From an uncultured Lachnospiraceae bacterium (GTDB lineage: Bacteria; Bacillota; Clostridia; Lachnospirales; Lachnospiraceae): 64,000 nucleotides of DNA. A model generated the notes under the pieces. The model worked only from the letters and a program-made list of their open reading frames with translations, was not told where the DNA came from and did no database searches. This document shows positions 6,368 to 38,036 of this stretch, one piece after another; the stretch's first letter is position 1, and the number at the start of each line of letters is the position of its first letter. Location of the stretch: NCBI GenBank assembly GCA_902781455.1, contig CACZJF010000012.1, forward strand, positions 1 through 64,000, given 5' to 3'. The translations under genes and the position numbers were made by a program.

Positions 6368-6375
6368 CGGGAATC

Positions 6376-6525
6376 CATGAGGCAGGTTCTGCTGCGTCAG
6401 ACTCGTCTGTAAGAAGCAGAGCCTGCCTCATGGGTGGCTCGTGAAGCGAGCCACCCACAGCCACAGACAAAAGCTGCGAAGCAGCGGTAGCCACGCGAAG
6501 CGTGGATGGTCTGTGGTATGTGGGG
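6376..6525 (+). repeat. Structured intergenic element, family 1, copy 1
   Basis: It begins 8 bases after the dhaK-dhaL stop. An 18-bp stem pairs 6376-6393 with 6415-6432 (one G-T pair) and encloses a core containing GCGTCAGACTCGTCTGTAAG. Next come a 10-bp GAA-type hairpin (6432-6456), an 8-bp stem 6461-6468/6509-6516, and inside it two GAA-loop hairpins: GCTGC-GAA-GCAGC (6473-6485) and CCACGC-GAA-GCGTGG (6491-6505). A weaker outer pair is CCCACA/TGTGGG (6454-6459/6519-6524). A related element lies at 11369-11562 with different arms. It may be an RNA structure or a mobile palindromic repeat. Confidence 0.75.
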
Positions 6526-20469: not shown

Positions 20470-21282
20470 ATGACGATCAGTGAGATGAAACAACGGAAGC
20501 AGGAGATGGGGTATTCCTATGCATTGATCTCTGAGAGGTCAGGCGTTCCTATATCTACGATTCAGAAGATCTTTCATGGAGAAACCGTATCTCCAAGGTA
20601 TGAAACGCTGCAGGCACTGGAGAAAGCGCTGAAGGAATCCGTGGATGCGCAGCCGGCGCTTGTGCGGGAAACACCGCTCCGGTATCGGGCAGATTCTGAC
20701 GGTCCGGAGGATGAGAAGTATCCCAGACAGGGAAGCTACACGATAGAGGACTATTATGCCCTGCCGGATGACCAGAGGGTAGAGCTGATTGACGGCGTTT
20801 TCTATGATATGGCTTCGCCGGTATCGCTTCATCAGCTGATTGCAGGGGAAGTGTACAGACAGATCGCTAACTATATTCTTGACAATGGCGGGTCCTGTAC
20901 TGTGTTTATCGCTCCGCTGGATGTGCAGCTGGACTGTGACAACCGGACGATGGTACAGCCGGATGTGATGATACTCTGTGACGATGAGAAGAATACCAAC
21001 AAGAATATCTATGGGGCGCCGGATTTTATCCTTGAAGTGATATCGCCTTCCACGAAGCGCAAAGACTGCTTCCTGAAGCTACAGAAGTATATGGACGCCG
21101 GCGTCAGGGAATACTGGATACTGGACCCATACAAAGAGAAACTGATGATATACTTCTTTGAGGAGGATGCGTTTCCGCTTATCTGCGGGCTCGACAAACC
21201 GATTCCCGTGCGGATCTATCATGGCGAGCTGGCCATCGACCCGAAGCATATTATGGGGTATATAGCCCGAAGCCGGGAATGA
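20470..21282 (+). CDS. Helix-turn-helix + Uma2-type (DUF820) nuclease-like protein
   Basis: The 270-residue protein has an N-terminal Xre/Cro-type helix-turn-helix (about 1-60; ALISERSGVPISTIQKIFHG). A linker and a Uma2 domain (about 90-255) with PD-(D/E)xK-type core residues follow: RVELIDGVFYDMASP, VQPDVMILCD, DFILEVISPSTKRKD and YMDAGVREYWILDP. Uma2 proteins are abundant in cyanobacteria and some Firmicutes, and their true role is not settled. The HTH fusion suggests DNA targeting or self-regulation. GCGGAGG is five bases before the ATG. It has its own promoter. Confidence 0.85.
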   Translation: MTISEMKQRKQEMGYSYALISERSGVPISTIQKIFHGETVSPRYETLQALEKALKESVDAQPALVRETPLRYRADSDGPEDEKYPRQGSYTIEDYYALPDDQRVELIDGVFYDMASPVSLHQLIAGEVYRQIANYILDNGGSCTVFIAPLDVQLDCDNRTMVQPDVMILCDDEKNTNKNIYGAPDFILEVISPSTKRKDCFLKLQKYMDAGVREYWILDPYKEKLMIYFFEEDAFPLICGLDKPIPVRIYHGELAIDPKHIMGYIARSRE

Positions 21283-21300
21283 ACAGATAAGACGGGACTC

Positions 21301-21424
21301 GTTACAAGTCAGATCCCGGCCAGTTTCAGGGTGGACACAGGGATTCTGAGCGTAAACTTTTGGGGGTTGGAGCGAAGAATCCCTGTGTCTGCCGCAGGAG
21401 GCTGGCCGGGGTCTGACTTGTAAC
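21301..21424. repeat. Long double-stem hairpin element, family 2, copy A
   Basis: A 23-bp outer stem (21301-21323 with 21402-21424, one G-T pair) leads through an internal loop (11 and 13 bases) to a perfect 13-bp inner stem (21335-21347 with 21376-21388). The 28-base tip (21348-21375) is GAGCGTAAACTTTTGGGGG then TTGGAGCGA. Copy B at 29986-30100 has nearly the same tip but different stems. The orientation of any transcript is not known; coordinates are given in the + sense. The stretch 21283-21651 otherwise holds only the murA promoter and leader. Confidence 0.85.
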
Positions 21425-21463
21425 CGGGATTTCCTTCGCTCTTCATCGATATGATAAAATCAG

Positions 21464-21492
21464 TTTACAGATTTGTAAAAAGTGATTATAAT
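21464..21492 (+). promoter_or_regulatory. Promoter of murA
   Basis: TTTACA (21464-21469) and TATAAT (21487-21492) with 17-base spacing. The leader to the murA start would be about 150 bases. Confidence 0.8.
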
Positions 21493-21651
21493 ATGCAGGA
21501 CGAGCAGTTTATGCTGGTCCTGTTTGCTTACTCCTGACGGGAATATGGCCTGAAGCAAGGCCTGGGAGCGGGCATACAGACATGAGGGGGAGCGCCTCCG
21601 GGTTATTAAGGGATAGAACCGGAAGGTGGAATAATTAGTAACTGAAGAGGA

Positions 21652-22950
21652 ATGAGTATGGAACAGTATATCATCAGGGGTGGTACTCCTTTGCACGGCG
21701 AGGTGGAAATCGGCGGCGCAAAGAATGCAGCCCTGGGAATTCTTGCCGCGGCAATCATGACGGACGATGAGGTCCTGATTGAGAACCTGCCGGATGTCCG
21801 CGATGTGAATGTCATGCTGGAGGCGATGAGCCAGATCGGTGTGCATGTGGACCGGCTGACGCCGCATTCGGTGATGTTGTGCGGAGCTGATATCGGCGAC
21901 GTCAACATTGAATACGAATATATCAAAAAGATCCGTGCGAGTTATTATCTGCTTGGCGCTCTGCTTGGGAAGTACAAGAAAGCAGAAGTGCCGCTTCCCG
22001 GCGGCTGCAATATCGGCTCAAGACCGATCGACCTTCATCTGAAGGGATTTAAGGCGCTGGGAGCAAAGGTTTCCATCCGGAACGGCAGTATCTGCGCGCA
22101 GGCAGAGCATCTGAGAGGATGTCACCTGTTCCTGGATACGGTTTCCGTGGGAGCGACCATCAATATCATGATGGCAGCGGCGATGGCGGAAGGCCGTACC
22201 GTGATCGAGAACTGCGCGAAGGAACCGCATGTCGTTGATGTCGCAAACTTCCTGAACAGTATGGGAGCGAACATCAAGGGCGCCGGTACCGATGTGATCC
22301 GTATCGTTGGAGTTGAGAAGCTTCATATGACGGAATACTCGATCATTCCGGATCAGATCGAAGCGGGGACTTTCATGTTCGCGGCAGCGTGCACGGGCGG
22401 AGATGTTCTGGTGAAGAACGTGATTCCGAAGCATCTGGAGGCGACGATCTCCAAGCTGCTCGAGATTGGCTGTCGTGTGGAGGAATTCGACACGGAGGTG
22501 CGGGTGATCGGACCGAAGCGTCTGTCCTGTGCCAATGTCAAGACCCTGCCGTATCCCGGATATCCGACGGATATGCAGCCGCAGATCGGCGTTGCGCTTG
22601 CGATGGCGGAAGGCACTTCGATTGTGACGGAGTCAATCTTCGAGAACCGGTTCAAGTATCTGGACGAGCTGGCCCGTATGGGAGCGACATCCAAGGTGGA
22701 AGGCAATACCGCGATTATCTCCGGAACCGACAGACTGACAGGCGCGAGAATCAGTGCACCGGATCTGAGAGCTGGTGCGGCGCTCGTGATCGCAGGTCTT
22801 GCGGCGGAAGGCGTCACGACAATCGACGACATCGTCTATATCCAGAGAGGGTATGAGCAGTTTGATGAAAAGCTGCGGGGGATCGGCGCGAAGATCGAAT
22901 GCGTCAGTTCGCAGAGAGAAGCCCGCAAGTTTACATTGATGACGGGTTGA
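21652..22950 (+). CDS. murA: UDP-N-acetylglucosamine 1-carboxyvinyltransferase
   Basis: The 432-residue protein does the first committed step of peptidoglycan synthesis, moving enolpyruvate from PEP to UDP-GlcNAc. It shows the inside-out barrel of the EPSP-synthase family: GGAKNAALGILAA (start of domain 1, with the catalytic Lys-Asn), the active-site Cys in PLPGGCNIGSRPIDLH (the residue fosfomycin alkylates), VSVGATINIM, PDQIEAGTFM, PYPGYPTDMQPQ and DLRAGAALVIAGL. GAAGAGGA precedes ATG 21652; an ATG at 21658 is also possible. Many Firmicutes have two copies, and which one this is cannot be told here. Confidence 0.95.
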   Translation: MSMEQYIIRGGTPLHGEVEIGGAKNAALGILAAAIMTDDEVLIENLPDVRDVNVMLEAMSQIGVHVDRLTPHSVMLCGADIGDVNIEYEYIKKIRASYYLLGALLGKYKKAEVPLPGGCNIGSRPIDLHLKGFKALGAKVSIRNGSICAQAEHLRGCHLFLDTVSVGATINIMMAAAMAEGRTVIENCAKEPHVVDVANFLNSMGANIKGAGTDVIRIVGVEKLHMTEYSIIPDQIEAGTFMFAAACTGGDVLVKNVIPKHLEATISKLLEIGCRVEEFDTEVRVIGPKRLSCANVKTLPYPGYPTDMQPQIGVALAMAEGTSIVTESIFENRFKYLDELARMGATSKVEGNTAIISGTDRLTGARISAPDLRAGAALVIAGLAAEGVTTIDDIVYIQRGYEQFDEKLRGIGAKIECVSSQREARKFTLMTG

Positions 22951-22980
22951 ATTCAAAAACGGATTGGAAGTATTATGATC

Positions 22981-23010
22981 GGCCGGCAGGGATGCCGGCC
23001 GGTTTGTTGT
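22981..23010 (+). terminator. Probable terminator of murA
   Basis: GGCCGGCA-GGGA-TGCCGGCC (8-bp GC stem) is followed by GGTTTGTTG. The T-run is interrupted, so strength is uncertain. A second hairpin (CTGCTCTC-AGGA-GAGAGCAG, around 23066-23085) lies between it and the convergent rsmA gene. Confidence 0.5.
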
Positions 23011-23095
23011 CTGAGAAGCACTTTGCATGGTTCAGCAACACACGGTTTGATGCCGCGTGCTGCCTGCTCTCAGGAGAGAGCAGTGAAAGGAGCAA

Positions 23096-24040
23096 TCAGG
23101 TGCCCAGATGGTCGCTCAGAGAGACGAAGTCCGCGACCGACAGCTTCTCTCCGCGTATGGACGGACTGAAGCCGAGCTGCTCCAAAGCGTCTGCGATCTG
23201 TTCCTTTGAACAGGGAACCTGCGGACTGGACGACAGTGCATTGGTCAGGGTCTTGCGGCGCTGCCCGAAGGCGGCGCGTATGATGTGATCGAACAGCTCC
23301 TCATCCTGCGCTTTTACCGGCGGCTCTTCGTACAGCTCCATCGTCACGACTGCGCTGGTAACCTTCGGGTGCGGAATAAAGGAGGACGGCGGCACCAGTT
23401 CCACGATCTGCGGAGCGGAGTAGTACTGCACCGCAACGGAGAGCGAGCCGTAGTCTTTGCTGCCCGGCTGCGCGCACATCCGGTCCGCCACTTCCTTCTG
23501 CACCATGACCGTGATGGACTGCGCAGGGACCCTTTGCCGGAACAGATTCATCAGGATCGGCGTGGTGATGTAGTAGGGCAGGTTCGCGACGATCCGGAGC
23601 GGAGCCAGCGCAGCAGGCGCTGATGCAGGTTCCCGGGAAGCGTTAGCGCCGCTGATGCTGCCGGAATCTGTATTGCCGGTATTGACTCTGCCGGCGTGAT
23701 ACTGCTGCGCAAGCGAGACCAGATCTACCTTCAGTACATCTTCATTGATTACTGCCACGTTGTCGTAATCCCGAAGGGTATCTTCCAGAATGGGAATCAG
23801 CTTCTTATCGATTTCAATCGATACGACCTGATGGGCTGCGTCGGCCAGGAACTGTGTCAGGGTGCCGACGCCGGGACCGATCTCAAAGATGACATCGTCT
23901 TTGCCGACCTGCGCCGCTTCGAGGCTTCGGCGGATGACACCCTCGTCGATGAGGAAGTTCTGCCCGAACTTCTTGTGAAAATCGAAATCATATCTGGAGA
24001 TGGTCTCCAGCATGGTGCGGGGATCTGACAGCTTACTCAT
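23096..24040 (-). CDS. rsmA: 16S rRNA dimethyladenosine transferase RsmA (KsgA)
   Basis: The 314-residue enzyme dimethylates two adenines near the 3' end of 16S rRNA using SAM. Motifs: FGQNFLID, VIFEIGPGVGTLTQFL (SAM motif I), VVSIEID, the catalytic NLPYYITTPI and FGQRRKTLTNAL. Before NLPYY there is an insertion of about 35 residues rich in Ser, Gly, Ala and Asn (about 119-152), not usual for the family and probably a loop. The ATG at 24040 follows GGAG. It is downstream of metG on the same strand, separated by ~185 bases with inverted repeats. Confidence 0.93.
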   Translation of the reverse strand: MSKLSDPRTMLETISRYDFDFHKKFGQNFLIDEGVIRRSLEAAQVGKDDVIFEIGPGVGTLTQFLADAAHQVVSIEIDKKLIPILEDTLRDYDNVAVINEDVLKVDLVSLAQQYHAGRVNTGNTDSGSISGANASREPASAPAALAPLRIVANLPYYITTPILMNLFRQRVPAQSITVMVQKEVADRMCAQPGSKDYGSLSVAVQYYSAPQIVELVPPSSFIPHPKVTSAVVTMELYEEPPVKAQDEELFDHIIRAAFGQRRKTLTNALSSSPQVPCSKEQIADALEQLGFSPSIRGEKLSVADFVSLSDHLGT

Positions 24041-24225
24041 GGCTATTCTCCTGTTTTCCTGATAGCATAACACCTCTCCCACGCGCTGCAGCGCTGAAGG
24101 AGAGGTGATTCTTATCTACGCAGCCGGTACACAGCCGGCTCTTTGGTCAGGTGGTTATCAAATGAGCCGTCCAATGCGTCATTTGATGAGACGCGTGCCA
24201 AAGGTTGATTGCGGAGGTTCCGCGC

Positions 24226-26286
24226 TTACCGTACCTCGGCGCCGGAATCAACCTCGCCCTCCGGCCGGACAAGGCTCAGGCGGCCCTGGGCGTCTTCCGC
24301 GCAGAGGATCATGCCTTCGCTCATCATTCCGGCAAGCTTTGCCGGCTTCAGGTTGGTGATGACCAGCACCTTTTTGCCGACCATCTCTTCCGGTGTATAC
24401 CACTGCTTGATGCCGGAGAGGATCTGGCGGGTCTGGCTGCCGATCTTCACCTGGCTGCACAGAAGCTTGCGGGACTTTTTGACTTCCTCGCACTTGATTA
24501 CCTCGCCGACCTGGATCTGAAGCTTCGCAAAGTCATCGATGGAAACCTCCGGCTTCGGTTCGGGTTCAGACGCATCATTCTTTGCCGCGTCAGTACCGGA
24601 ACCGTTCCCCGCAGCCTGACCGGCATCTGCCGCCTGATCGGAAGCAGGCGCGGAAGCCTTCTCCGGGTGCATCTTCGCGACCATCTCAGCGACGTCTTCC
24701 GCCTTCAGTCTCTGGAACAGAATCTGCGGCTGGTCAGTTACCTTCCGTCCGGACGGATACTGCCCGAACTGTGTCATGTTGTCGAGTCCGCGTTTTTCTG
24801 CGTTCAGCTGCGCGAGGATCTTCGCGCTGGTATCCGGCATGAAGGATTCCAGAAGCTCAGCGCCGACACAGATCGCTTCCACCAGGTTGTAGAGAACCTC
24901 GCTCAGGCGGTCCTTTGTCAGAGCGTCTACGCCCTTGGCCAGCACCCAGGGTGCCGTCTCGTCAATGTATTTGTTGCAGCGTTTGAAGAGCGCGATGACC
25001 TCGCTGATCGCGTCCGCTACCCGCAGAGCATCCATCTTTTCGATCACTGTCTTGGGCGTCTCAAGGACCATACGCTTCAGATCCTCATCGATGCTTCCGG
25101 TCTGCCCTTCGCTGACCACGCCGGCCGGGGAAACCTGCTCGTCCGTAACACCGGTCCTGTTCACGACACCGCCGAAATACTTATTTGTCATGGAGATGGT
25201 GCGGTTTACCAGATTGCCGAGCGTATTCGCCAGATCGGAGTTGAAGCGCTCCACGCACAGATCCCAGGTAATCACGCCGTCATTTTCAAAGGGCATCTCG
25301 TGCAGCACAAAGCAGCGCACCGCGTCCACGCCGAAGACATTCACAAGTTCATCCGCGTACAGGACATTGCCCTTGGACTTGCTCATCTTGCCGTCGCCCA
25401 TCAGAAGCCACGGATGTCCGAAGACCTGCTTTGGAAGGGGCTCGCCGAGTGCCATCAGGAAGATCGGCCAGTAGATTGTATGGAAGCGGATGATATCCTT
25501 TCCGATCAGGTGAAGGTCCGCCGGCCAGTACTTCTTATAATCATCGGTCGATCCGTCGGTGTCATAGCCGGCGAAGGTAATATAGTTGCTCAGCGCATCC
25601 AGCCACACATACACAACATGCTTTGGATCGAAGTCCACCGGGATGCCCCAGGTAAATGAGGTTCTGCTGACGCAAAGATCCTGCAGTCCGGGCAGAAGGA
25701 AATTGTTCATCATCTCGTTCTTGCGCGCTACGGGCTGAATGAACTCCGGATGCGTGTTGATGTGCTCAATCAGACGGTCCGCGTACTTGCTCATACGGAA
25801 GAAATAAGCCTCTTCCTTCGCCATCGTGACCGGACGTCCGCAGTCAGGGCACTTGCCGTCCACCAGCTGGCTCTGGGTCCAGAAGGATTCGCAGGGCGTA
25901 CAGTACCAGCCTTCATAGGAACCCTTATAGATATCTCCCTGATCGTAAAGCTTTTTGAATATCTTCTGGACCTTTTTCTTGTGCACCGGATCTGTCGTGC
26001 GCACGAAGCGGTCATAGCTGGTCCCCATCAGATCCCAGATCTGCCGGATGATGCCTGAATTCTGATCAACGAACGCCTGCGGTGTCATGCCGGCTTCGGC
26101 GGCCTTGATCTCGTTCTTCTGTCCGTGCTCGTCCGTACCGGTCTGGAACACGACATCATATCCTTCTGCTCTCTTGAAGCGGGCGATCGCGTCGGCCAGA
26201 ACCGCCTCATAGGTATTGCCGATATGCGGTTTGCCCGAAGAATACGCGATTGCGGTTGTAATATAATAAGGTTTTTTGTCTGCCAT
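24226..26286 (-). CDS. metG: Methionyl-tRNA synthetase
   Basis: The 686-residue class I synthetase charges tRNA-Met, including the initiator present in this window. It has the HIGH-type motif (SGKPHIGNTYEA), a zinc-binding pair (CTPCESFW and CPDCGRP), WLDALSNYI and KMSKSKGN. A C-terminal EMAP/Trbp111 tRNA-binding domain (about 585-686; VGEVIKCEEVKKSRKLLCSQVKIG) is joined by an Ala/Ser/Asp-rich linker. Length and architecture fit dimeric bacterial MetRS. GGAAGG lies before the ATG. No T-box was seen upstream. Confidence 0.95.
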   Translation of the reverse strand: MADKKPYYITTAIAYSSGKPHIGNTYEAVLADAIARFKRAEGYDVVFQTGTDEHGQKNEIKAAEAGMTPQAFVDQNSGIIRQIWDLMGTSYDRFVRTTDPVHKKKVQKIFKKLYDQGDIYKGSYEGWYCTPCESFWTQSQLVDGKCPDCGRPVTMAKEEAYFFRMSKYADRLIEHINTHPEFIQPVARKNEMMNNFLLPGLQDLCVSRTSFTWGIPVDFDPKHVVYVWLDALSNYITFAGYDTDGSTDDYKKYWPADLHLIGKDIIRFHTIYWPIFLMALGEPLPKQVFGHPWLLMGDGKMSKSKGNVLYADELVNVFGVDAVRCFVLHEMPFENDGVITWDLCVERFNSDLANTLGNLVNRTISMTNKYFGGVVNRTGVTDEQVSPAGVVSEGQTGSIDEDLKRMVLETPKTVIEKMDALRVADAISEVIALFKRCNKYIDETAPWVLAKGVDALTKDRLSEVLYNLVEAICVGAELLESFMPDTSAKILAQLNAEKRGLDNMTQFGQYPSGRKVTDQPQILFQRLKAEDVAEMVAKMHPEKASAPASDQAADAGQAAGNGSGTDAAKNDASEPEPKPEVSIDDFAKLQIQVGEVIKCEEVKKSRKLLCSQVKIGSQTRQILSGIKQWYTPEEMVGKKVLVITNLKPAKLAGMMSEGMILCAEDAQGRLSLVRPEGEVDSGAEVR

Positions 26287-26414
26287 GTTGACGCCTTCCT
26301 TCCTGCCGGACCGTCACAGACAGTCCGGGTATTTTTCTCATTTTGATCTCAGCGCGCTCCGCCGGGTCAGACGGCAGCGCGGTGTCAGCGATATACCGGA
26401 ATCAGGAGGTATGA

Positions 26415-26990
26415 TTACTTCACCGTATCCTGATCAATGATATCTTCTTCATAGATGTACTTTGATCTCAGCTCGTTGACCTTTCTGTTGGAGAGGAACA
26501 TGTAGATTCCAAGCAGCAGCAGACTGAGACCGACAAAACGGGTCAGAAGCGAAGCTGTGCTGAAGGGATCGCGGATTGCTTCTATGCCTGCGACGGCGAA
26601 GACAAGTCCGATGACCAGATGGAAAACCCAGTGCACCCCGTGAAACCTTCTTACATCAAACGCAGTCTGGATGGACCGCGCGCCTCCGAAGATCAGGAAC
26701 AGACCGAACAGAAACGGCAGTATGCTGATCACGACGGAAGAGTACAGAAGCATGAACAGTCCGGTGACAGCACAGATCAGTCCGATGGACAGGTCGTGGT
26801 TCGCCATGGCCGAGGCGGCATCCCGCGTGGTGACATAGCGCAGAATTCTGCCTGCGCCATAGACCAGAAGCACAATGCCGATGCCGTATACGATGATCTT
26901 GTTTGTCAGTGACGGCATCAGAAGCAGAACCAGGCCGACCAGAGCGACCAGGATGCTGGAAACGGATACATTGTTCAGCAGTTTTTTCAT
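26415..26990 (-). CDS. DUF308 (HdeD-like) membrane protein
   Basis: The 191-residue protein has about six hydrophobic helices arranged as repeated pairs, with polar turns such as RYVTTRD and DVRRF, which fits DUF308/HdeD proteins of Firmicutes. The family is linked to stress in enterobacteria, but its function here is unknown. The last ~25 residues (RKVNELRSKYIYEEDIIDQDTVK) are charged and probably cytoplasmic. GGGGGAGATAAAGG precedes the ATG. It lies 87 bases after a DegV gene on the same strand. Confidence 0.85.
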   Translation of the reverse strand: MKKLLNNVSVSSILVALVGLVLLLMPSLTNKIIVYGIGIVLLVYGAGRILRYVTTRDAASAMANHDLSIGLICAVTGLFMLLYSSVVISILPFLFGLFLIFGGARSIQTAFDVRRFHGVHWVFHLVIGLVFAVAGIEAIRDPFSTASLLTRFVGLSLLLLGIYMFLSNRKVNELRSKYIYEEDIIDQDTVK

Positions 26991-27077
26991 CCTTTATCTC
27001 CCCCCTTTTCTGTAACAGAAATCCCCTTAAGATGCTCCCCCTTGAAGCGGCCAAAAACCGCAGCAGCGGCATGCTGC

Positions 27078-27989
27078 TCACTGAACATCCATCCTGCAGG
27101 CGCTTTCATCGGCGTTTTCCGGAAGCTTCTTCGTGCAGGTGATGGCAAGCGCCCCGGGGCCGATGTGACAGGAAACGGAAAGAGACAGCGGTTGCATAAT
27201 GATGTTCTTTCCGGGATAAGCGTCCTGAATCTCGGACAGCCATTCCTCTACCTCTGCGTCCCGGCTTCCGGAATAGGCACCGGAGATCCAGACCATGTCG
27301 GTATGATCCGCAGCCTGGAAGCGGTCCCGGATGTCATCCTCGATCGCCTTCAGCATGGTCATCTTTGACATCTTGACTGTCCTGCACTTTGCGAAGGAAT
27401 CCAGCTTCTCTCCCTGAATCTGGAGAACCGGCTTGATCTTCAGAAGTGTGCCGAGGGCAGCAGCGGCACCCGTCACACGTCCGCCCTTCTTCAGATACTT
27501 CAGCGAGGGCAGATAGATGTAGATGGTGGAGTCAAACTTTGTCTGCTCGAGATAGGCACGGATCCTTGCCGCGTCCCAGCCCTGGTCCGCCAGCGCCATG
27601 GCATCCAGAACAGACTGCCGCTGGGTGACAGAGATCCGCTGGTTATTGACCACCTGGACCCGGCCGTCATAATCCTCCGACAGGGATGCAGCTGTCGCGC
27701 AGGAACTGGAAAGACCGCTTGACATGGGGATATATACAATCTCATCATATTCCTTCAGCAGGCTGTCCCAGCAATCCAGCACGTCACCAACGACAGGCAT
27801 GGAGGTATGAATCTCCGCGTCCGTTTCGAGATGATGGTAAAACTGCTCCTGAGAAAGTGTGATATCTTCGTAGAACAGTTCATCGTTAATATAAAATGGC
27901 ATCGGCAGCACCCGGATACCCAGTGCCTTGCCCTGTGCCTGCGTGATCCCGCTGTTGCTGTCTGTAAGGACCGCGACTCTCTTACCCAT
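27078..27989 (-). CDS. DegV family fatty-acid-binding protein
   Basis: The 303-residue protein has the two-domain DegV fold. VLTDSNSGI is at the N-terminus, then TSMPVVGD (the TSQP-like fatty-acid head-group motif), IPMSSGLSSSCATA, KYLKKGGRVTGAAAALGTLLKIKPVL and a C-terminal GPGALAI. DegV/FakB proteins hold a fatty acid so that a DhaK-like kinase (FakA) can phosphorylate it; no FakA is seen here. The start at 27989 was chosen for the AGGAG before it. It may be co-transcribed with the DUF308 gene. Confidence 0.92.
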   Translation of the reverse strand: MGKRVAVLTDSNSGITQAQGKALGIRVLPMPFYINDELFYEDITLSQEQFYHHLETDAEIHTSMPVVGDVLDCWDSLLKEYDEIVYIPMSSGLSSSCATAASLSEDYDGRVQVVNNQRISVTQRQSVLDAMALADQGWDAARIRAYLEQTKFDSTIYIYLPSLKYLKKGGRVTGAAAALGTLLKIKPVLQIQGEKLDSFAKCRTVKMSKMTMLKAIEDDIRDRFQAADHTDMVWISGAYSGSRDAEVEEWLSEIQDAYPGKNIIMQPLSLSVSCHIGPGALAITCTKKLPENADESACRMDVQ

Positions 27990-28223
27990 ATGATTGATTC
28001 TCCTCTGTAAATACCGGTGTAAGCCTGACAAACAGCGGCTTTTACCGCACCGCATGTTTTCGCGTGGCAATTATAGGACTCATCATAACAGAAAACAGAT
28101 GCCGGCGCTATATACAATCATTGTATTTGTGTCAAACGGCCGCTCTTGCTACAATTCAGTCTGGGACAGGACGGAAAAGGGCAGTACTCACCCCGGAAGG
28201 GGGCGCAGGAAAGGAAGCACGAT

Positions 28224-29075
28224 ATGTTGATCTGTGATACGCATGCACATTACGATGATGAGGCCTTCGATCAGGACAGAGAGCTCCTGCTGGGCAGCGA
28301 ACTGAAAGCAGGCGGCGTAGAATTCGTGGTTAATATGGGCGCGTCGATGGAGGGCGCCCGGGCGTCCGCGGCATATGCCCGCAGATATCCAAAGCACGGG
28401 CCTGAGAACGGCGCCGGCACTTGCGTTGTGATGTACGCAGGCTGCGGGATTCATCCCGATGACACAGGCGTCTTTGAAGGAAAGGAGACCACGTCCGGCC
28501 TTCGGTACGCCCATCCGGACGACGTCATGCAGGAACTGAGGAATCTGTGCGGTCAGGAAGGCGTGGTCTGTGTCGGAGAGATCGGCCTCGACTATCATTG
28601 GATGGTGGAGACGAAGGAGGTACAGCAGAAGTGGTTCCGGGAGCAGATGCGCCTTGCATATGAGCTGCAGCTGCCCATCAATGTGCACAGCCGCGACGCG
28701 GCGCAGGATACGTTTGACCTGATCCGGGAAAACTATGACGCAGGCCGGTTCACCGGCGGTGTCATTCACTGTTATTCAGGAAGCCTGGAGCTGGCGCGGG
28801 AATATGTGAAGATGGGATATCTGATCGGCGTCGGCGGGGTTGTGACCTTCAAAAACGCAAAGACGCTCAAGAAGGTGGTGCAGGAGATCCCGCCGGAATT
28901 CCTTGTGACAGAGACAGACTGCCCTTACCTCGCGCCGGAGCCGCACCGCGGGAAGCGGAATGACTCCCGCAATATTCGTTATGTCATCGAGGCGATTGCT
29001 GCTCTGAAAGAGATGGATACAGACACCTGCGCGCAGGTCCTGCAGGAGAATGCGCTGAGCGTGTACCGGATCTGA
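28224..29075 (+). CDS. tatD: TatD family metal-dependent hydrolase/DNase
   Basis: The 283-residue TIM-barrel protein has the metal-binding signs of TatD: DTHAHYDD at the start, GEIGLDYHW, INVHSRDA, GGVIHCYSGS and TETDCPYLAP. TatD enzymes act as 3'-5' nucleases on DNA and are also common near metG and rsmA in Firmicutes, as here. The protein has a small insertion after GIHP (DDTGVFEGKETTSGLRYAHP). AGGAAAGGAAG precedes ATG 28224. A GC-rich hairpin follows the stop. Confidence 0.93.
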   Translation: MLICDTHAHYDDEAFDQDRELLLGSELKAGGVEFVVNMGASMEGARASAAYARRYPKHGPENGAGTCVVMYAGCGIHPDDTGVFEGKETTSGLRYAHPDDVMQELRNLCGQEGVVCVGEIGLDYHWMVETKEVQQKWFREQMRLAYELQLPINVHSRDAAQDTFDLIRENYDAGRFTGGVIHCYSGSLELAREYVKMGYLIGVGGVVTFKNAKTLKKVVQEIPPEFLVTETDCPYLAPEPHRGKRNDSRNIRYVIEAIAALKEMDTDTCAQVLQENALSVYRI

Positions 29076-29080
29076 CAAAA

Positions 29081-29120
29081 AGGACCCCTGCAGGCTTTGG
29101 CGGCAGCCTGCAGGGATCCT
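29081..29120 (+). terminator. Hairpin after tatD, possible terminator
   Basis: CCCTGCAGGCT pairs with AGCCTGCAGGG (11 bp, 8-base loop), with further flanking pairs. There is no clear T-run, so it may instead stabilise the mRNA end. It lies between convergent tatD and the DUF624 gene. Confidence 0.5.
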
Positions 29121-29170
29121 CATCTGTAAAGTCAGAATCCTTTTGATCCGATCGCCTTGTCAGGAAGCAT

Positions 29171-29941
29171 TTATAATTTTTCCAGTCGCTGGTGCAGGTC
29201 TTCCGATGATCCGGAGGCTTCCTCTGCCGGCCCGTAGCCAAGGTTTGTCAGATCCGCACTCTCATCTACCGAAAATGCGTTGTCCGGTGTGACCTCATCC
29301 CCAGCATCTTCCGGCATCAGCTTTTTGATGACCGGATAGAGCAGCTGTACGTTGACGGTCGCGATTCCGGAAAAGCCGATCAGGATCCAGGCAAGGATCA
29401 GATTCCACAGGACAATCACTTCCTTCTGCATCAGCGTAAACGCAATGACTGCCGCGGTCAGGGCGATGATCGCGATGGATCTGGGGCCGTTGGCGAACAT
29501 CAGGAGGACTGCGTTGTGGAAGGTATTTTTGATCGTATTGTAGAACTTCGACTGCAGCGCGAAGGCATAGGTGGTGATCAGGTACCAGAAGATCAGTCCG
29601 ATCAGAACGATGGAGCGGACCACCGAGCCGGCCGTTCCCGCAGCTTCGCGGTACATCAGAAACTCCAGGAAGAGGATCGCGAAAAACACAAGCATGATCA
29701 GCCACATCGCAGTCGCCTGCTTCAGGTTGTCCCTGAAAGAGTGGAAGAACTTTTTGATGATATAGCCTTCTTCCTCGTCCTTTATTTTGAACAGGCAGTA
29801 GTACATCGCCGACAGGGACGCGCCGATCGTAACGATGGGAAGACTGCACACGATAAAGAGCAGATTCAGGAGCATCAGGTCCGCGATGCGCCCAAGAAAA
29901 CGCATGACCGGATTGTCCAGGTTAAAAATTCCTCTGAGCAT
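29171..29941 (-). CDS. DUF624 (YesL-like) membrane protein
   Basis: The 256-residue protein has about five membrane helices and the YesL/DUF624 pattern: NPVMRFLGRIADLMLLNLLFIVCSLPIVTIGAS at the start, then KFFHSFRDNLKQAT. The family is often found beside carbohydrate ABC transporters and two-component systems in Firmicutes, but none is adjacent here and the role is unknown. The C-terminal ~45 residues are acidic and soluble. GGAGGAATCACTC lies before the ATG. Confidence 0.87.
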   Translation of the reverse strand: MLRGIFNLDNPVMRFLGRIADLMLLNLLFIVCSLPIVTIGASLSAMYYCLFKIKDEEEGYIIKKFFHSFRDNLKQATAMWLIMLVFFAILFLEFLMYREAAGTAGSVVRSIVLIGLIFWYLITTYAFALQSKFYNTIKNTFHNAVLLMFANGPRSIAIIALTAAVIAFTLMQKEVIVLWNLILAWILIGFSGIATVNVQLLYPVIKKLMPEDAGDEVTPDNAFSVDESADLTNLGYGPAEEASGSSEDLHQRLEKL

Positions 29942-29985
29942 GAGTGATTCCTCCGCTGTTTCATGGTCATATTAAAATTCGTTAT

Positions 29986-30100
29986 CATTCACGGCCCTGC
30001 CTGAGTACCGCCACGAGGCCTGGCTTCTGAGCACAGACTTTTGGGGGGTCGAAGCGAAGAAGCCAGGTCTCGTGGCAGCGCTCGGGCGGGGCCATGAATC
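29986..30100. repeat. Long double-stem hairpin element, family 2, copy B
   Basis: The outer stem pairs 29986-30005 with 30081-30100 (one internal C-A mismatch, two G-T pairs, an unpaired end). A symmetric internal loop (TACCGC / GCAGCG) follows, then a 17-bp inner stem (30012-30028 with 30058-30074, one G-T). The 29-base tip (30029-30057) reads GAGCACAGACTTTTGGGGGG then TCGAAGCGA, almost as in copy A, although both stems are unrelated in sequence. It sits between divergent DUF624 and ileS, upstream of the ileS promoter. Confidence 0.85.
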
Positions 30101-30206
30101 GGTACAGGTATAGATCATCATACCATAGTTTTGCGCCGATCGCAGAATTTACTGCAATATGCCGTCATTTGAGCGGATCCGGCGTGTATTTTCGTGATTT
30201 CCCAAA

Positions 30207-30236
30207 TTGACATAAAAACAGATAGAACCTTATAAT
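30207..30236 (+). promoter_or_regulatory. Promoter of ileS
   Basis: TTGACA (30207-30212) and TATAAT (30231-30236) with 18-base spacing. The leader is about 65 bases and too short for a T-box; no AGGGTGGNACCGCG-like T-box sequence is present. Confidence 0.85.
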
Positions 30237-30306
30237 ACTGTGATTACTGATCAACTGGCACAGTGGGATACTGACGAGAAAGGCATCCCGCGGAGGTAAA
30301 TGACAG

Positions 30307-33300
30307 ATGCGATATGACAAAGTAAACACCGACCTGAACTTCGTTGAACGGGAAAAAGAAGTCAACCGGTTCTGGAAGGAAGCGGATATCTTCCGCAAGA
30401 GCATGAAGATCCGGGAGGGGGCGCCCTATTATACTTTTTACGACGGCCCGCCCACCGCGAACGGCAAGCCGCACATCGGCCATGTCCTGACGCGTGTCAT
30501 CAAGGACATGATTCCCCGCTATCACACCATGAAGGGCGAGTTTGTCCCGAGGAAGGCAGGCTGGGATACCCACGGTCTCCCCGTGGAGCTGGCGGTGGAG
30601 AAAGAGCTTGGCCTGAACGGAAAGGAGCAGATCGAGGAATACGGCATGGAGCCGTTTATCCAGAAGTGCAAGGAGTCCGTCTGGCAGTACAAGCAGATGT
30701 GGGAGGACTTCTCCGACACGGTTGGCTTCTGGGCCGACATGGACGATCCCTATGTCACCTATTATGACGACTATATTGAGTCCGAGTGGTGGGCACTGAA
30801 GAAGATCTGGGAGGACAAGCTCCTCTACAAGGGCTTCAAGGTTGTGCCGTACTGCCCGCGCTGCGGGACCCCGCTGAGCGCGCAGGAGGTTGCGCAGGGG
30901 TACAAGCTCGTCAAGGAGCGCTCCGCGATTGTGCGCTTTAAGGCTCTGGATGAAGACAACGTATACTACCTTGCATGGACGACAACGCCGTGGACGCTGC
31001 CCAGCAACTGCGCGCTGTGCGTGAACCCGGATGAAACCTATGTGAAGGTGAAGGCGGCGGACGGGTATACCTATATTCTTGCGCAGGCGCTTGCAGACAA
31101 GGTGCTCGGAAGACTGGCCACAGAAGATGCGCCCGCCTACGAAGTACTTGAGACTTATGTGGGAACGGACCTGGAGAGGCGTCCTTACGAGCCGCTGTTT
31201 GAGGCAGCGGGCATTGCGGCGAAGAAGCAGCACAAGGAATCACACTTTGTGACCTGCGACAATTACGTCACCATGACCGACGGTACCGGCATCGTCCATA
31301 TCGCGCCGGCCTTCGGTGAGGATGACGGACGGATCGGCAGGGAGTATGACCTGCCCTTTATCCAGTTTGTCGACGGCCAGGGCCTGATGACACCGGACAC
31401 ACCGTACGGCGGACTGTTCGTCAAGAAAGCGGATCCGGTGATCCTGAAGGATCTCGAACAGGAAGGCAAGCTGTTTGACGCGCCGAAGTTCGAGCATGAG
31501 TATCCGCACTGCTGGCGCTGCGACACACCGCTGATCTATTACGCGAGAGAATCCTGGTTCATCAAGATGACCGCGGTGCGGGATGAGCTGGTGAAGAACA
31601 ACAATACCGTCAACTGGATCCCGCCGAACATCGGGTCAGGCCGCTTCGGCAACTGGCTGGAAAATGTGCAGGACTGGGGCATCAGCCGCAACCGTTACTG
31701 GGGTACGCCGCTCCCGGTCTGGGAATGCGAAGAGTGCGGCGAGAAGATCTGCATCGGATCCCGCGAAGAACTGAAGGAACGTTCCGGGCGTGAAGACGCG
31801 CTGACGGTAGAGCTGCACCGTCCTTACATTGATGATTTCGTGTGCACCTGCCCCGCATGTCAGAAGAAGACCATGAAGCGCGTGCCGGAGGTCATCGACT
31901 GCTGGTTCGACTCCGGGGCAATGCCTTTTGCGCAGCATCATTATCCCTTTGAGAACCAGGAAACCTTCAAAAAGGAATTCCCGGCGGCGTTTATCTCAGA
32001 GGCGGTCGATCAGACCAGAGGCTGGTTCTACTCCCTGATGGCGGAGTCGACGATCCTTTTCCACCAGTCTCCGTATGAAAATGTGATCGTGCTTGGACTT
32101 GTCCTGGACGGCAACGGACAGAAGATGTCGAAGTCCAAGGGGAATGCGGTGGATCCTTTTGACGCGCTGGCGAAGCACGGCGCGGACGCGATCCGGTGGT
32201 ATTTCTACTCGAATTCCGCGCCATGGCTGCCGAACCGGTTCCATGACAAGGCGGTGCAGGAGGGACAGAGAAAGTTCCTCGGAACGCTCTGGAATACCTA
32301 CGCGTTCTATGTACTGTACGCGAACATAGACGACTTCGATCCCGCTCAGTATGAAGAGGGCTATCAGGCATTGCTCGAAAAGGTGAAGGAAGGCGAGGAC
32401 GCGCTGCCGGTCATGGACCGCTGGCTCCTGTCCCGCATGAACACCATGATCCGGGATACGGACGAGAGCCTTGCCGCTTACAAGATTCCGGAGACCGCGA
32501 GAGCGCTGGAGGAATTCGTTGACGATCTGTCGAACTGGTATGTCCGCAGATGCCGCGACCGTTTCTGGGCACACGGGATGGAGCAGGATAAGATCAATGC
32601 TTACATGACCCTGTACTATGCGCTGAAGAACCTGTGTCTGTGCGCGGCGCCGATGATTCCGTTCATGACCGAGGAGATTTACCAGAATATCGTCCGCCGT
32701 GTGGAGAAGGACGCGCTGGAGTCGATCCATCTGTGCCTGTTCCCGGAAGCGGACGAGGCACTGATCAATCCGGATCTGGAAGCGAAGATGGGCCAGGCGC
32801 TGAACATCGTCGTGATGGGCCGTGCCGCCAGAAATGACGCGAACATCAAGAACCGCCAGCCGATCGGGCGCATGTTCGTCAAGGCTGAGGTGACACTTCC
32901 GAAGTATTACGCGGATATCGTGACGGAAGAGCTGAACGTGAAAGCCATCGAATTCACAGATGACGTCAGAGCATTTACGAATTATATCTTCAAGCCGCAG
33001 CTGAGGACCGTCGGCCCGAAGTTCGGAAAACTTCTGGGCGGCATCAGGAAGTTCCTGGGCGAGGTTGACGGCAGCAAGGCGATGGACGAGCTGAATGAGA
33101 ACGGCTTTATCCGGTTCGACGTGAACCAGGAACCGGTCGAGCTGACAAGGGAAGACCTGCTGATCGAAACGGCGCAGACGGAAGGCTTCGTGACACAGCA
33201 GAACGGCGCGCTGACGGTTGTGCTTGACACGAACCTGTCTCCGGAACTGCTCGAGGAAGGCTTTGTGAGAGAGCTCGTCTCCAAGATCCAGACCATGCGC

Positions 33301-33523: not shown

Positions 33524-36001
33524 ATGGCAAAGAAAAAAGTTGAATCGAAGTTTGATAAGGGGTACTTTCAGGAACAGGTAAAGAACAATGTGCGCAGCCT
33601 CTTCCGGAAGAAGCTGGAAGAAGCGAACATGCAGGAAGTCTTCCAGGCGGTTTCCTATGCAGTGAAGGACGTGATCATCGATGACTGGATGGCGACTACC
33701 CAGGAGATGCAGGAAGAAGATCCGAAGATTCTCTACTATATGTCCATGGAATTTCTGATGGGACGAGCCCTGGGCAACTCCCTGATCAACATGACAGCGT
33801 ACCAGAACGTGAAGGAAGCGCTGGAGGAGCTTGGACTGGACATGAACGCGGTGGAAGACGAGGAGAGAGATCCCGCGCTCGGAAACGGCGGCCTGGGAAG
33901 ACTGGCGGCCTGCTTCCTGGATTCTCTGGCAACGCTCGGCTATCCGGCATTCGGCTGCGGCATCCGCTACCGCTATGGCATGTTCAAGCAGAAGATCGAG
34001 AACGGCTGTCAGGTAGAGGTCGCGGACAACTGGCTCAAGAACGGATATCCGTTTGAGCTCAAGAGACCGGAATATGCAAGAGAGATCAAGTTCGGCGGAT
34101 ACGTCCGTGTAGAATACAATGAAAAGACCGGACGGAACAGCTTTATCCAGGAGAACTGCCAGACGGTCCGCGCGGTTCCATTCGATATCCCGGTTGTCGG
34201 CTACAATAACCATGTGGTCAATACGCTGAGGGTCTGGGACGCAGAGGCGATCAATGACTTCCAGCTGGATTCCTTTGACAAGGGCGATTATCAGAAGGCC
34301 GTGGAGCAGGAGAACCTCGCGAGGAACATCGTTGAGGTCCTGTATCCGAACGACAACCATTATGCCGGCAAAGAGCTGAGACTGAAGCAGCAGTACTTCT
34401 TCATCTCCGCGTCCGTGCAGGACGCCATCGCGCATTACAAGCAGCAGCATTCCGACATCCGGAAGTTCTATAAGAAGGCGACCTTCCAGATGAACGATAC
34501 GCATCCGACGGTTGCGGTCGCTGAGCTGATGAGAATCCTGGTTGACGAAGAAGGCCTGGAGTGGGACGAGGCATGGGAGGTCACAACGAAGACCGTTGCC
34601 TATACGAACCACACGATCATGGCAGAGGCGCTGGAGAAGTGGCCGATCGAGCTGTTCTCAAGGCTGCTGCCGCGTATCTATCAGATCGTGGAAGAGATCA
34701 ACCGCCGCTTCCTGCTGGAGATCCAGAAGAAGTATCCGGGCAATCAGGATAAGATTGCAAGCATGGCGATTATCTACAACGGACAGATCAAGATGGCGCA
34801 CCTGGCCATCGTTGCCGGATATTCCGTCAACGGCGTGGCACAGCTGCACACGGAGATCCTGAAAAGCCAGACGCTGAAGGACTTCTATGAGATGTATCCG
34901 TGGAAGTTCAACAACAAGACGAACGGCATCACACAGCGCCGGTTCCTCCTGCACGGCAATCAGCTTCTTGCGGGCTGGGTGACGGACCATATCGGAGATG
35001 AGTGGGTGACGGATCTTCCGCAGATCGCGAAGATGAAGGTCTTCGCGGATGACGAGAAGGCGCAGCAGGAGTTCATGAACATCAAGTATCAGAACAAACT
35101 GCGTCTGGCAGAGTATATCAAGGAGCACAACGGAATCGAGGTTGATCCGCGTTCGATCTTTGATGTACAGGTCAAGCGTCTGCATGAGTATAAGAGACAG
35201 CTGATGAACATCCTGCATGTCATGCATCTGTATGATGTGATCAAGGATCATCCGGAGATGCCGTTCTATCCCAGGACCTATATCTTCGGCGCGAAGGCGG
35301 CGGCGGGCTACCACAGGGCCAAGCTGACGATCAAGCTGATCAATAACGTGGCGGATGTTATCAACAACGACGCGTCAATCAACGGTAAGATCAAGATCGT
35401 CTTCATCGAGGACTACCGTGTGTCGAACGCGGAGTGGATCTTCGCGGCGGCGGATGTGTCAGAGCAGATCTCAACCGCGTCCAAGGAAGCGTCCGGAACC
35501 AGCAACATGAAGTTTATGCTGAACGGCGCGCCGACACTCGGCACCATGGACGGCGCGAACGTAGAGATCGTCGAGGAAGTGGGCGAAGAGAATGCATTTA
35601 TCTTCGGTCTTTCTTCCGAGGAGGTGATCCGCTTCGAGAACGAAGGCGGCTATGATCCGAATTATTACTTCAATACCGATCAGGACATCCGCCGTGTGCT
35701 GATGGAGCTGATCAACGGCAAGTATTCGAACGGCGACATGGAGCTGTTCCGTGAGATCTATGATTCTCTGCTGACGAACAAGTACGGCAGAGCGGATCAG
35801 TACTTTATCCTGGCTGACTTCAAGGCATATGACAAGGCAAGACTCGATATTGTCGAGGCATACCAGGATGAGAAGCGCTGGGCGAAGATGGCGATCCTGA
35901 ATATGGCGTCAGCGGGCAAGTTCTCCTCTGACAGAACGATTCAGGAATACGAGGACGATATCTGGCACCAGACACCGATTAAGGTGAAGCCGCTGAAGTA
36001 A
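33524..36001 (+). CDS. glgP: Glycogen/maltodextrin phosphorylase
   Basis: The 825-residue GT35 enzyme removes glucose units from alpha-1,4-glucans with phosphate to give glucose 1-phosphate. It has the full family layout: LGNGGLGRLAACFLDSLATLGYPAFGCGIRYRYG, TFQMNDTHP, VAYTNHTIMAEALEKW, RRFLLHGNQLL, DVQVKRLHEYKRQ and the PLP site with EASGTSNMKFMLNGA. Length is normal. It directly follows ileS, an unusual partner for a storage-glucan enzyme, and pgi elsewhere in the window could take its product onward after phosphoglucomutase. Confidence 0.95.
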   Translation: MAKKKVESKFDKGYFQEQVKNNVRSLFRKKLEEANMQEVFQAVSYAVKDVIIDDWMATTQEMQEEDPKILYYMSMEFLMGRALGNSLINMTAYQNVKEALEELGLDMNAVEDEERDPALGNGGLGRLAACFLDSLATLGYPAFGCGIRYRYGMFKQKIENGCQVEVADNWLKNGYPFELKRPEYAREIKFGGYVRVEYNEKTGRNSFIQENCQTVRAVPFDIPVVGYNNHVVNTLRVWDAEAINDFQLDSFDKGDYQKAVEQENLARNIVEVLYPNDNHYAGKELRLKQQYFFISASVQDAIAHYKQQHSDIRKFYKKATFQMNDTHPTVAVAELMRILVDEEGLEWDEAWEVTTKTVAYTNHTIMAEALEKWPIELFSRLLPRIYQIVEEINRRFLLEIQKKYPGNQDKIASMAIIYNGQIKMAHLAIVAGYSVNGVAQLHTEILKSQTLKDFYEMYPWKFNNKTNGITQRRFLLHGNQLLAGWVTDHIGDEWVTDLPQIAKMKVFADDEKAQQEFMNIKYQNKLRLAEYIKEHNGIEVDPRSIFDVQVKRLHEYKRQLMNILHVMHLYDVIKDHPEMPFYPRTYIFGAKAAAGYHRAKLTIKLINNVADVINNDASINGKIKIVFIEDYRVSNAEWIFAAADVSEQISTASKEASGTSNMKFMLNGAPTLGTMDGANVEIVEEVGEENAFIFGLSSEEVIRFENEGGYDPNYYFNTDQDIRRVLMELINGKYSNGDMELFREIYDSLLTNKYGRADQYFILADFKAYDKARLDIVEAYQDEKRWAKMAILNMASAGKFSSDRTIQEYEDDIWHQTPIKVKPLK

Positions 36002-36033: not shown

Positions 36034-36093
36034 AAGACCAGGTGTCCGGGGATTTGTGAGAGATAAGATTCTCACCCCGGACACCTGGTCTTT
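36034..36093. terminator. Bidirectional terminator after glgP
   Basis: A stem of about 16 bp (AGACCAGGTGTCCGGGG with CCCCGGACACCTGGTCT) encloses ~23 bases and is followed by TTTG; the other strand has the same arms. It separates convergent glgP and the GH18-like gene. Confidence 0.75.
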
Positions 36094-36116: not shown

Positions 36117-38036
36117 TTACGCCGCGGCCTGCGGACCGTCTTCGGCTTCTGTGTCTGCCTCGGTTTGTGTGGCGGCTTCTGCGCTCCCGGCGGCGGCAGC
36201 CAGATCCTGCTCCTCAAGCGTTTTGATCCGCGCGGATGCTTCCTCTTCCGTAAGGGAGAGGGTCTGTGACAGGACATCCCAGACCGTATCGTCCTGGAAA
36301 CCAAGCGCCCAGATGGCGCAGCCGCCAAGGTCATTGGCGCTGACAAGCAGGGCTTTACGCTCCAGCGAGGCAGCATCTTCGATCCAGATCTCGCACAGGA
36401 CACCGTCATCGGTGTTCCATGCGATATAGTTCTGCGCAGTGACAGGATCCCATGTCGGGGTCAGGTTCCAGGATTCGAGCGTGGCACGGACGGCGTTCAT
36501 CGAGAGCTCTTCACTGTTGATGCAGGTGTTGCCCTCGGTATCCCGGGAGGTATACCAGATCCTTGTATAGAACGGGATGGCGCTGATCAGCTTGTCAGCC
36601 GGCACGCCCATCAGCAGAAGGTTGTTGATGGCGCCTTCTTCATACCCGAGAGACGCGACGGAGCCGGCGCTCTCTGACCCGACGTAGTGCTCGTCATATC
36701 CCATATTGATGAGATAGTCACTGACAGCGGCAATCTCAGGCCGGTTCAGATAGGCGTTGAAGTCGTACGGCGGATAGGTGTCCACACTGAGGACCAGGCC
36801 AAGCTTCCTGCACACGATGGAGATCTCTCTGACAAATTCGGTGTAGGTGAAGGCATCGCCCGGATCAATATGTTCGAAGTCGATGTTGATGCCGTCAAGG
36901 CCGAGTGTCGTCGCGTAGCCGGCCAGCTGGCTGATGCAGTTGCGCCTCGCCTGGGTGGAGGCGAGCATGACGGAGTTATCCATATCCGGGGAGAAGTCAT
37001 TGACCAGTCCCCAGACCTGCAGGCCCTGTCTGTGCGCTTCTTCCACATATGTTCTGGAGCCGAGCGATTCCACGTTTCCTTCATTGTCGGTCAGGGCAAA
37101 CCAGGTCGGGCTGATGACATTGATGCCGGACATGGAAGCGATATCGTCAGGAAAGGCTTTATTGTCCTGTGTGGTGGAAATCATATGCCAGATCAGGGAG
37201 ACTTTCCCGTCCATCGGGACGGACGGGTATTCCACCGGCGTGAATCCCTCATGCTCCAGACTGACCTGGGCAGGTTCTGTCATGCGGTTTGACTTGACCC
37301 AGCCGATGAAGCCGTTCTGCGTCAGGACTTTCAGCCAGTGGTCTTCCTGCTCCAGGACGATGACCTGATCTCCCTTGAGCAGGTCCGCTACAATCGGACT
37401 CTTGATTCCGCCTCTGTAACGCACCGCGGCTTCCTTGGATGCTTCGGCGGTCAGCATGTTCCCCCACTGGGTACGGATAAATACATGCTTTGTACTTTCT
37501 TCAAAGACATAATCGATGTCCGTATACTGCGCAAGGAAATCAAGGTTCAGGTACAGCGTGTCATCGCTGCCGCGCAGGGCGATGACATCATCATACTGCG
37601 CTTTAGAAGAAGAATCGTCCGGAAGGGCGCCGTCAATTACCGTATAAGAATCCGATCCGACGGGAATCTCAAAGGTCTGCAGGGCAGTCGTAAACAGAAT
37701 CTGCGCATTCTCCTCATCCCAGAAGAAGCGCTCGTTCAGGGAATCCCTGACAAGGCTGTGCGGAAGATAGACCGCGCCGCTGTCTGAGATCATCGCATAC
37801 TGGTCTGTCAGGATCTGATCCTGAAGCACAATGGCAGCTTCGTTCTCTTTCACGGGGCCAAAGTACTCCTCGTACGGCATACGCCTGCTGGTCGGCGTAA
37901 ACCGCAGAATCAGAAATACGGCGGCTGCAGTACCCAGGATGAAGAGAAGGATCAGCAAAAGGACCCTTGCGCGAAGCTGCTTCTTCCGCCGGGCAGTGCG
38001 TTCACTGCGTTTCGTGTCTCTGTCCATGTTGTCCAT
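36117..38036 (-). CDS. Membrane-anchored GH18-like glycosidase with SH3 domain
   Basis: The ~639-residue protein has a basic N-terminus and one membrane helix (VLLLILLFILGTAAAVFLILRF) and then ~160 residues like a copper-amine-oxidase N-terminal/stalk domain (LVRDSLNERFFWDEENAQILFTT). A bacterial SH3 domain follows (about 205-255; GDQVIVLEQEDHWLKVLTQNGFIGWVK). The GH18 barrel carries LDGINIDFEHID with the catalytic Glu near 388. It resembles spore-cortex or wall-lytic YaaH/YdhD-type enzymes. The C-terminus is Ala/Glu/Thr-rich. ATG 38036 follows GAGG; an ATG at 38051 is possible. Confidence 0.85.
   Translation of the reverse strand: MDNMDRDTKRSERTARRKKQLRARVLLLILLFILGTAAAVFLILRFTPTSRRMPYEEYFGPVKENEAAIVLQDQILTDQYAMISDSGAVYLPHSLVRDSLNERFFWDEENAQILFTTALQTFEIPVGSDSYTVIDGALPDDSSSKAQYDDVIALRGSDDTLYLNLDFLAQYTDIDYVFEESTKHVFIRTQWGNMLTAEASKEAAVRYRGGIKSPIVADLLKGDQVIVLEQEDHWLKVLTQNGFIGWVKSNRMTEPAQVSLEHEGFTPVEYPSVPMDGKVSLIWHMISTTQDNKAFPDDIASMSGINVISPTWFALTDNEGNVESLGSRTYVEEAHRQGLQVWGLVNDFSPDMDNSVMLASTQARRNCISQLAGYATTLGLDGINIDFEHIDPGDAFTYTEFVREISIVCRKLGLVLSVDTYPPYDFNAYLNRPEIAAVSDYLINMGYDEHYVGSESAGSVASLGYEEGAINNLLLMGVPADKLISAIPFYTRIWYTSRDTEGNTCINSEELSMNAVRATLESWNLTPTWDPVTAQNYIAWNTDDGVLCEIWIEDAASLERKALLVSANDLGGCAIWALGFQDDTVWDVLSQTLSLTEEEASARIKTLEEQDLAAAAGSAEAATQTEADTEAEDGPQAAA

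Follow-up and report, generated by a model that had tools for sequence, protein, structure and literature searches.

Families of dispersed stem-loops, among them ERIC and bcr1, are intergenic, form hairpins, measure ~120-160 bp and are restricted to particular lineages. A review of bacterial MITEs notes truncated members that resemble REPs (PMC10969869). For hairpins within RNA genes, a study of template switching describes reverse-complement copying between the two arms, which produces multibase compensatory changes while the loop is kept (Monttinen and Loytynoja, PMC8794818). Here we analyze two hairpins, copies A and B, in a window of 64,000 nucleotides from an uncultured Lachnospiraceae bacterium (GCA_902781455.1, contig CACZJF010000012.1), together with their relatives in other genomes; genomes and loci carry G and L numbers, G000 being the genome of the window. 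The two hairpins are probably members of a MITE-like family, i.e., palindromes that transpose non-autonomously, whose arms would be kept complementary by copying of one arm onto the other.

Two hairpins with a common tip

The preliminary description had reported two hairpins with a common tip, and folding energies, the list of inverted repeats and the tip sequences all bear this out at the places given, copy A at 21301-21424 and copy B at 29986-30100. Folding of the + strand gave z = -11.35 for copy A and z = -10.25 for copy B, with 0 of 200 shuffles equally good for either. The two hairpins rank at the top of the window's inverted repeats: I1 is copy B, with 42-nt arms that are 83% complementary (29987-30028 and 30058-30099, + strand), and I2 is the outer stem of copy A, in which 23-nt arms at 21301-21323 and 21402-21424 (+ strand) are 96% complementary. 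The tips are alike except for one inserted G and a few differing bases. That of copy A, GAGCGTAAACTTTTGGGGGTTGGAGCGAAG, occupies 21348-21377 on the + strand, its last two bases already forming part of the inner stem, and that of copy B, GAGCACAGACTTTTGGGGGGTCGAAGCGAAG, is one base longer (30029-30059, + strand).

Copy A is a full-length element of 124 bp, with its tip strand on the + strand and the ends GTTACAAG...CTTGTAAC. Its left flank CGGGACTC (21293-21300, + strand) and right flank CGGGATTT (21425-21432, + strand) are identical at six of eight bases and represent a decayed target-site duplication. Copy B had been assigned to 29986-30100, an extent that proved too short; its outer arms reach ~29981 and 30105 (+ strand, ~125 bp, ends set by eye). 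These outer arms resemble a second end type, GTTACAGTTCACTGCCC (in copy B GTTATCATTCACGG / CCATGAATCGGTAC), which is matched within 3 substitutions in locus L103. No target-site duplication was seen in the flanks of copy B. Copy A starts 18 bases past the stop codon of its upstream gene and is followed by murA, and copy B is located between two divergent genes, with ileS as the next gene.

Several other features were observed near the two copies and elsewhere in the window. In the protein encoded directly before copy A (20470-21282), a Uma2 nuclease-like domain comes after an HTH_3 domain. Each copy is separated from the next gene by a stretch containing a promoter-like site, at 21464-21492 (11/12) and 30207-30236 (12/12). 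An intergenic hairpin at 6375-6433, with 19-nt arms that are 95% complementary, has a different tip that nevertheless contains AGACTCGT like some tips of the family, and may be a distant relative. A perfect 18-bp hairpin with a 23-nt loop at 36034-36092, flanked by a gene that ends at 36001 and by one at 36117, is without the tip of the A/B family.

Every part of the full form of the element is present in copy A. An outer stem of ~20 bp, with ends GTTACA(A/G)GTCAC and their complement, is followed by an internal loop and an inner stem of 16-18 bp. The inner stem leads to a tandem G-A mismatch and then to a 2-bp helix, beyond which are a 3x3 purine-rich loop, GAC/GTC and, before the turn, two T-G steps. 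Full-length copies measure ~124 bp, have the termini GTTACA...TGTAAC and are almost wholly self-complementary. The stems are not wholly unrelated between copies, as had been thought, given that the inner stem near the tip keeps ACAGGG.T.CT / AG.A.CCCTGT with paired changes. The tandem G-A mismatch is turned into pairs in two G000 copies (L067 at 4022 and L072 at 4049) and is hence not indispensable.

Distribution, variants and mobility

Searching this genome and its relatives with a covariance model had been proposed as a check, and the search disclosed a family. The model (R1) was based on an alignment (A2) of 16 copies picked by exact tip pattern, with L015 left out. It gave 33 matches in G000, which correspond to 27 places after 6 opposite-strand re-hits were dropped. 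With re-hits removed, 6 of the 19 genomes searched in the genus yielded 113 places in all, i.e., 34 in G015, 27 in G000, 24 in G007, 12 in G010, 9 in G016, and 7 in G003, all of these genomes being incomplete (70-88%). When stricter filters were applied to 299 genomes of the family, R1 gave 16 matches in G000 and one weak match in each of two genomes from other genera (E 4.8e-4 and 9.6e-4), with no further match in the 298 genomes besides G000. The exact tip pattern was found in nine stretches of a named genome collection, from the two assemblies CADBZI01 (uncultured Lachnospiraceae bacterium RUG14439) and CAMIVF01 (uncultured Clostridia bacterium). Exact patterns for the tip, the two end types and the long-form core returned nothing from the viral collection, and one G007 copy had no match among phages and a single 37-base match among plasmids (E 0.4).

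Statistics were computed on 88 of the 113 places, comprising all of those in G000, G010, G016 and G003 (27, 12, 9 and 7), 20 of 24 in G007, and 13 of 34 in G015; the remaining G015 places were cut by contig ends or not fetched, and those at contig ends are possibly halves of one copy. One row (L070) occurred twice among the 88, and a recount was made on 87 distinct copies; copies within a species are not independent. According to our own codon-usage gene caller, 87 of the 88 places are outside predicted genes, and 13 are between divergent genes. In G015 (loci L134-L142), tandem outer-arm units surround the copies, and contig ends coincide with many copies, which is what recent, nearly identical repeats would be expected to produce. 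At L058 (around 4133) and L061 (around 3864), tandem left halves of the element precede an intact copy, and the L058 copy is seemingly nested in an older hairpin.

The family includes both longer and shorter forms. An extra tip branch is present in some copies, e.g., L074 and L075 (G000) and L118, L164 and L169 (G010). The pattern of the branch core (up to 3 mismatches) was matched nine times in G010, six times in G003, three times in G000, and once each in G008 and G015; as judged by eye from the folds, the core belongs to tip-family hairpins at eight of the nine G010 sites, and the usual ends accompany it at none of the six G003 sites. At the G003 loci L187, L192, L195, L198 and L202, a branched core, GGGGCGC(T)GAGCGTCCAGTGGACGCTC..., is set in a different context; some of these copies have a longer 3' part in common, and they perhaps constitute a separate element family. 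G007, G010 and G017 also contain shorter, tip-less palindromes built on the same outer stem. The R1 search found no tip in G017, where the end pattern was matched 114 + 99 times (up to 2 mismatches); with its >200 end-pattern matches, this genome appears to contain a large expansion of tip-less palindromes (loci L147-L153).

Both ends GTTACA(A/G)GTCAC were recognizable in 31 of the 88 copies, and the flanks of these copies bear a duplication of fixed length. Identity between left and right flanks was 0.552 at 8 bp, compared to a mean of 0.27 and a maximum of 0.359 in 1000 shuffles; at lengths of 4-7, 9 and 10 bp it stayed within the shuffles, such that the peak is confined to 8 bp. Seven or eight of the 8 bases matched in 12 of the 31 copies, 10 of which are among the 16 from G007, and the remaining 19 copies lack such a match. 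At L131 (G015), a 9-bp repeat flanks the element, and the site is empty in the sister species G016, where the target is present once, uninterrupted, with 89% identity across the site (the only locus tested); the element is also absent there from G007 and G010, but with other short differences. The family hence displays the terminal inverted repeats, fixed-length target-site duplication and empty site by which a MITE is tested. Together with the many copies and their intergenic placement, these findings favor one of the options raised in the preliminary description, that of a small mobile palindromic element.

We propose that a transposase acting in trans would recognize the GTTACA(A/G)GTCAC ends. 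Searches of the incomplete genomes with PF01797, PF00872, PF12762 and PF01610 found no autonomous partner with the same ends: the IS256 search gave one partial match in G007 (L207) without these ends, the ISL3 search gave one gene in G007 (L219), again without these ends, and there was no IS1595 match in the genomes searched. In G007, locus L159 consists of 556 bp between two opposed ends and contains one open frame of 121 aa.

Arm changes and rival explanations

Stem covariation beyond chance, another check that had been proposed, was confirmed. Standard pairs fill 92.0% of the cells of alignment A2, both partners have changed in 16 of the 25 pairs, and none of five covariation measures was reached by any of 500 shuffles; sliding the partners by 1-3 columns caused pairing to fall to 29.5-51.3%. 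Relative to their own consensus, the 20 G007 copies contain 16 two-sided Watson-Crick changes compared to 2.4 expected, and 6 of the 12 G010 copies contain 16 compared to 1.1 expected; such excesses of ~7-fold and ~15-fold are measured against an expectation of independent changes that ignores shared descent. One-sided changes number 125 in G007 and 25 in G010. Most changes in G007 are therefore uncorrected (125 one-sided vs. 16 two-sided), and a one-sided block, TAA, is observed in the right arm of several copies.

Some arms have been rewritten in blocks. The internal loop is unpaired in the consensus. The right arm of L077 nonetheless complements the left exactly, straight through this loop; L082 shows the opposite direction, its left arm being an exact complement of the right; and L086 has a shorter, partial rewrite. 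Template switching at a hairpin produces changes of this kind, in blocks, in both directions and with accompanying changes in length. From these footprints we infer that, after insertion, replication could switch template at the hairpin and so transfer a change from one arm to the other (quasipalindrome correction). The arms could thereby drift and yet stay complementary with no need of a functional RNA. Replacement of the stems had been read as pointing to selection on structure; for the stems this does not follow, since copying of arm onto arm gives the same pattern and the same covariation signal, and for the tip such selection is possible. At L071 and L125, the copies have a five-T tip in common and differ in their arms, which suggests that arms change in place. 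In seven pairings of orthologous loci between G000 and G016, the arms were identical at 18, 18, 22, 25, 26, 27 and 35 of 36 sites; a general hypervariability of the stems was dropped as an idea, given that most pairings are low but one is almost unchanged (35/36).

The covariation just described for the 16 copies of A2 would also be seen if the hairpin were transcribed, its pairing kept by selection on the RNA and its tip read by a protein, with the compensatory changes reflecting function. Such a structured RNA, likewise among the options first raised, would make sense of the G-A mismatches and T-G steps of the tip in one strand's RNA, and of the paired changes between species in the tip's 2-bp helix. 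The strand signals that it predicts are weak: orientation in tandem-gene gaps was sense in 31 cases and antisense in 16 (p = 0.04), and one-sided changes produced 53 G-T and 32 A-C mismatches (p = 0.029), both from copies that are not independent. A G-U excess is expected of an RNA helix. The observed balance is far from this, with 115 G-T vs. 109 A-C mismatches in the whole arms of 87 distinct copies and 23 vs. 15 in the inner stem (p = 0.26), the latter count being based on the 67 of 88 rows with at least 13 of 18 pairs and thus favoring paired copies; this disfavors a structured RNA. The 8-bp target-site duplications, as marks of transposition, and the block rewriting of arms also speak against it. 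In agreement with the statement that no Rfam family has such a tip, there was no Rfam match above the gathering threshold in the window and none for seven loci at E up to 0.5, while two matches in 20900-30400 at E up to 1 were far below the gathering score and attributable to chance. Overall, we consider the RNA explanation unlikely.

Two further explanations are each highly improbable. REP-like palindromes moved by a Y1 (RAYT or IS200-type) transposase would also be palindromic, intergenic and dispersed, and G000 does contain two PF01797 matches, both near contig ends. However, of the six tip-bearing genomes, five lack PF01797 (G003, G007, G010, G015 and G016), as does G017, in assemblies that are incomplete, and seven tip-less genomes have it (G002, G005, G009, G011, G012, G014 and G018). 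A Y1 transposase was rejected as the mover because PF01797 does not track the tip across genomes; moreover, the copies carry 8-bp duplications, which to our knowledge are not expected of these enzymes. Unusually strong transcription terminators would account for the high stability of both hairpins and for the start of copy A so shortly (18 bases) after a stop codon. In contrast, no site with the terminator pattern (GC-rich stem, short loop, T run) was found in 21200-21700 or 29900-30320, copy B and 13 of the 88 places lie between divergent genes, and terminators would not explain the target-site duplications.

Tip conservation and comparison with known systems

Conservation is clearly higher in the tip than in the arms. 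Across the 18 distinct G000 copies whose tips are 29 nt long, the tips had a mean identity of 0.877, compared to 0.544 in the arms, the long-tip copies L074, L075 and L118 having no arm alignment in the arm recount. Several copies are found at the same gene borders across species, including copy A and L111 of G010 beside murA, and the flanks of orthologous loci are ~83-91% identical. Among the seven G000-G016 pairings, five (from four loci) have tips of equal length, which are identical at 136 of 145 positions (0.938) over all 29 sites, and the other two differ in tip length. The tip core was identical at 23 of 23 sites in each of the five pairings once six variable sites, chosen after seeing the data, were left out. 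It is suggested that the tip is also better kept than its surroundings, its identity at orthologous loci being only slightly above that of the flanks.

This conservation is consistent with the tip being a recognition or structural feature that may serve either mobility or the host. A more specific proposal, which we regard as quite improbable, is that the element is of a new kind whose functional part is the tip, acting both as a folded single-stranded (DNA or RNA) recognition hairpin and as the fold-back point for arm copying; the element would then have its own device to stay a palindrome while its arms turn over, and would retain this device once the transposon ends had decayed.

The MITE-like reading of this family has a bearing on how structured RNAs are recognized. 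Covariation of paired bases is the usual proof of a new structured RNA, and the A/B palindrome exhibits strong covariation that stems at least partly from arm-to-arm copying of DNA. Since such copying yields covariation, dispersed hairpin families that are not RNAs can also satisfy covariation tests. As a natural archive of many parallel copies, the family would, moreover, allow template switching at bacterial hairpins to be measured in rate, tract length and direction. No account of such an element was found in the openly licensed literature, which is weak evidence of novelty.

ERIC and bcr1 are alike in size, intergenic place, hairpin formation and lineage restriction; they are not known to have the tip and ends of the A/B family. 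The REPs and the GTAG- and CGTC-tagged palindromes (PMC3733652) are likewise dispersed extragenic palindromes, but REPs measure 20-40 bp, whereas the present elements measure ~124 bp, bear 8-bp duplications and are not tracked by a Y1 transposase. The arm rewriting with a kept loop matches that described in the template-switching study (PMC8794818), there for microRNA and rRNA genes and here for a mobile element with many parallel copies. With bacterial MITEs, as characterized in the review (PMC10969869), the family shares short length, many copies, inverted terminal repeats, target-site duplications and the lack of a gene of its own. In contrast to those elements, nearly the whole length here is one hairpin, the arms are rewritten from each other, and in old copies conservation is highest in the middle and not at the ends.
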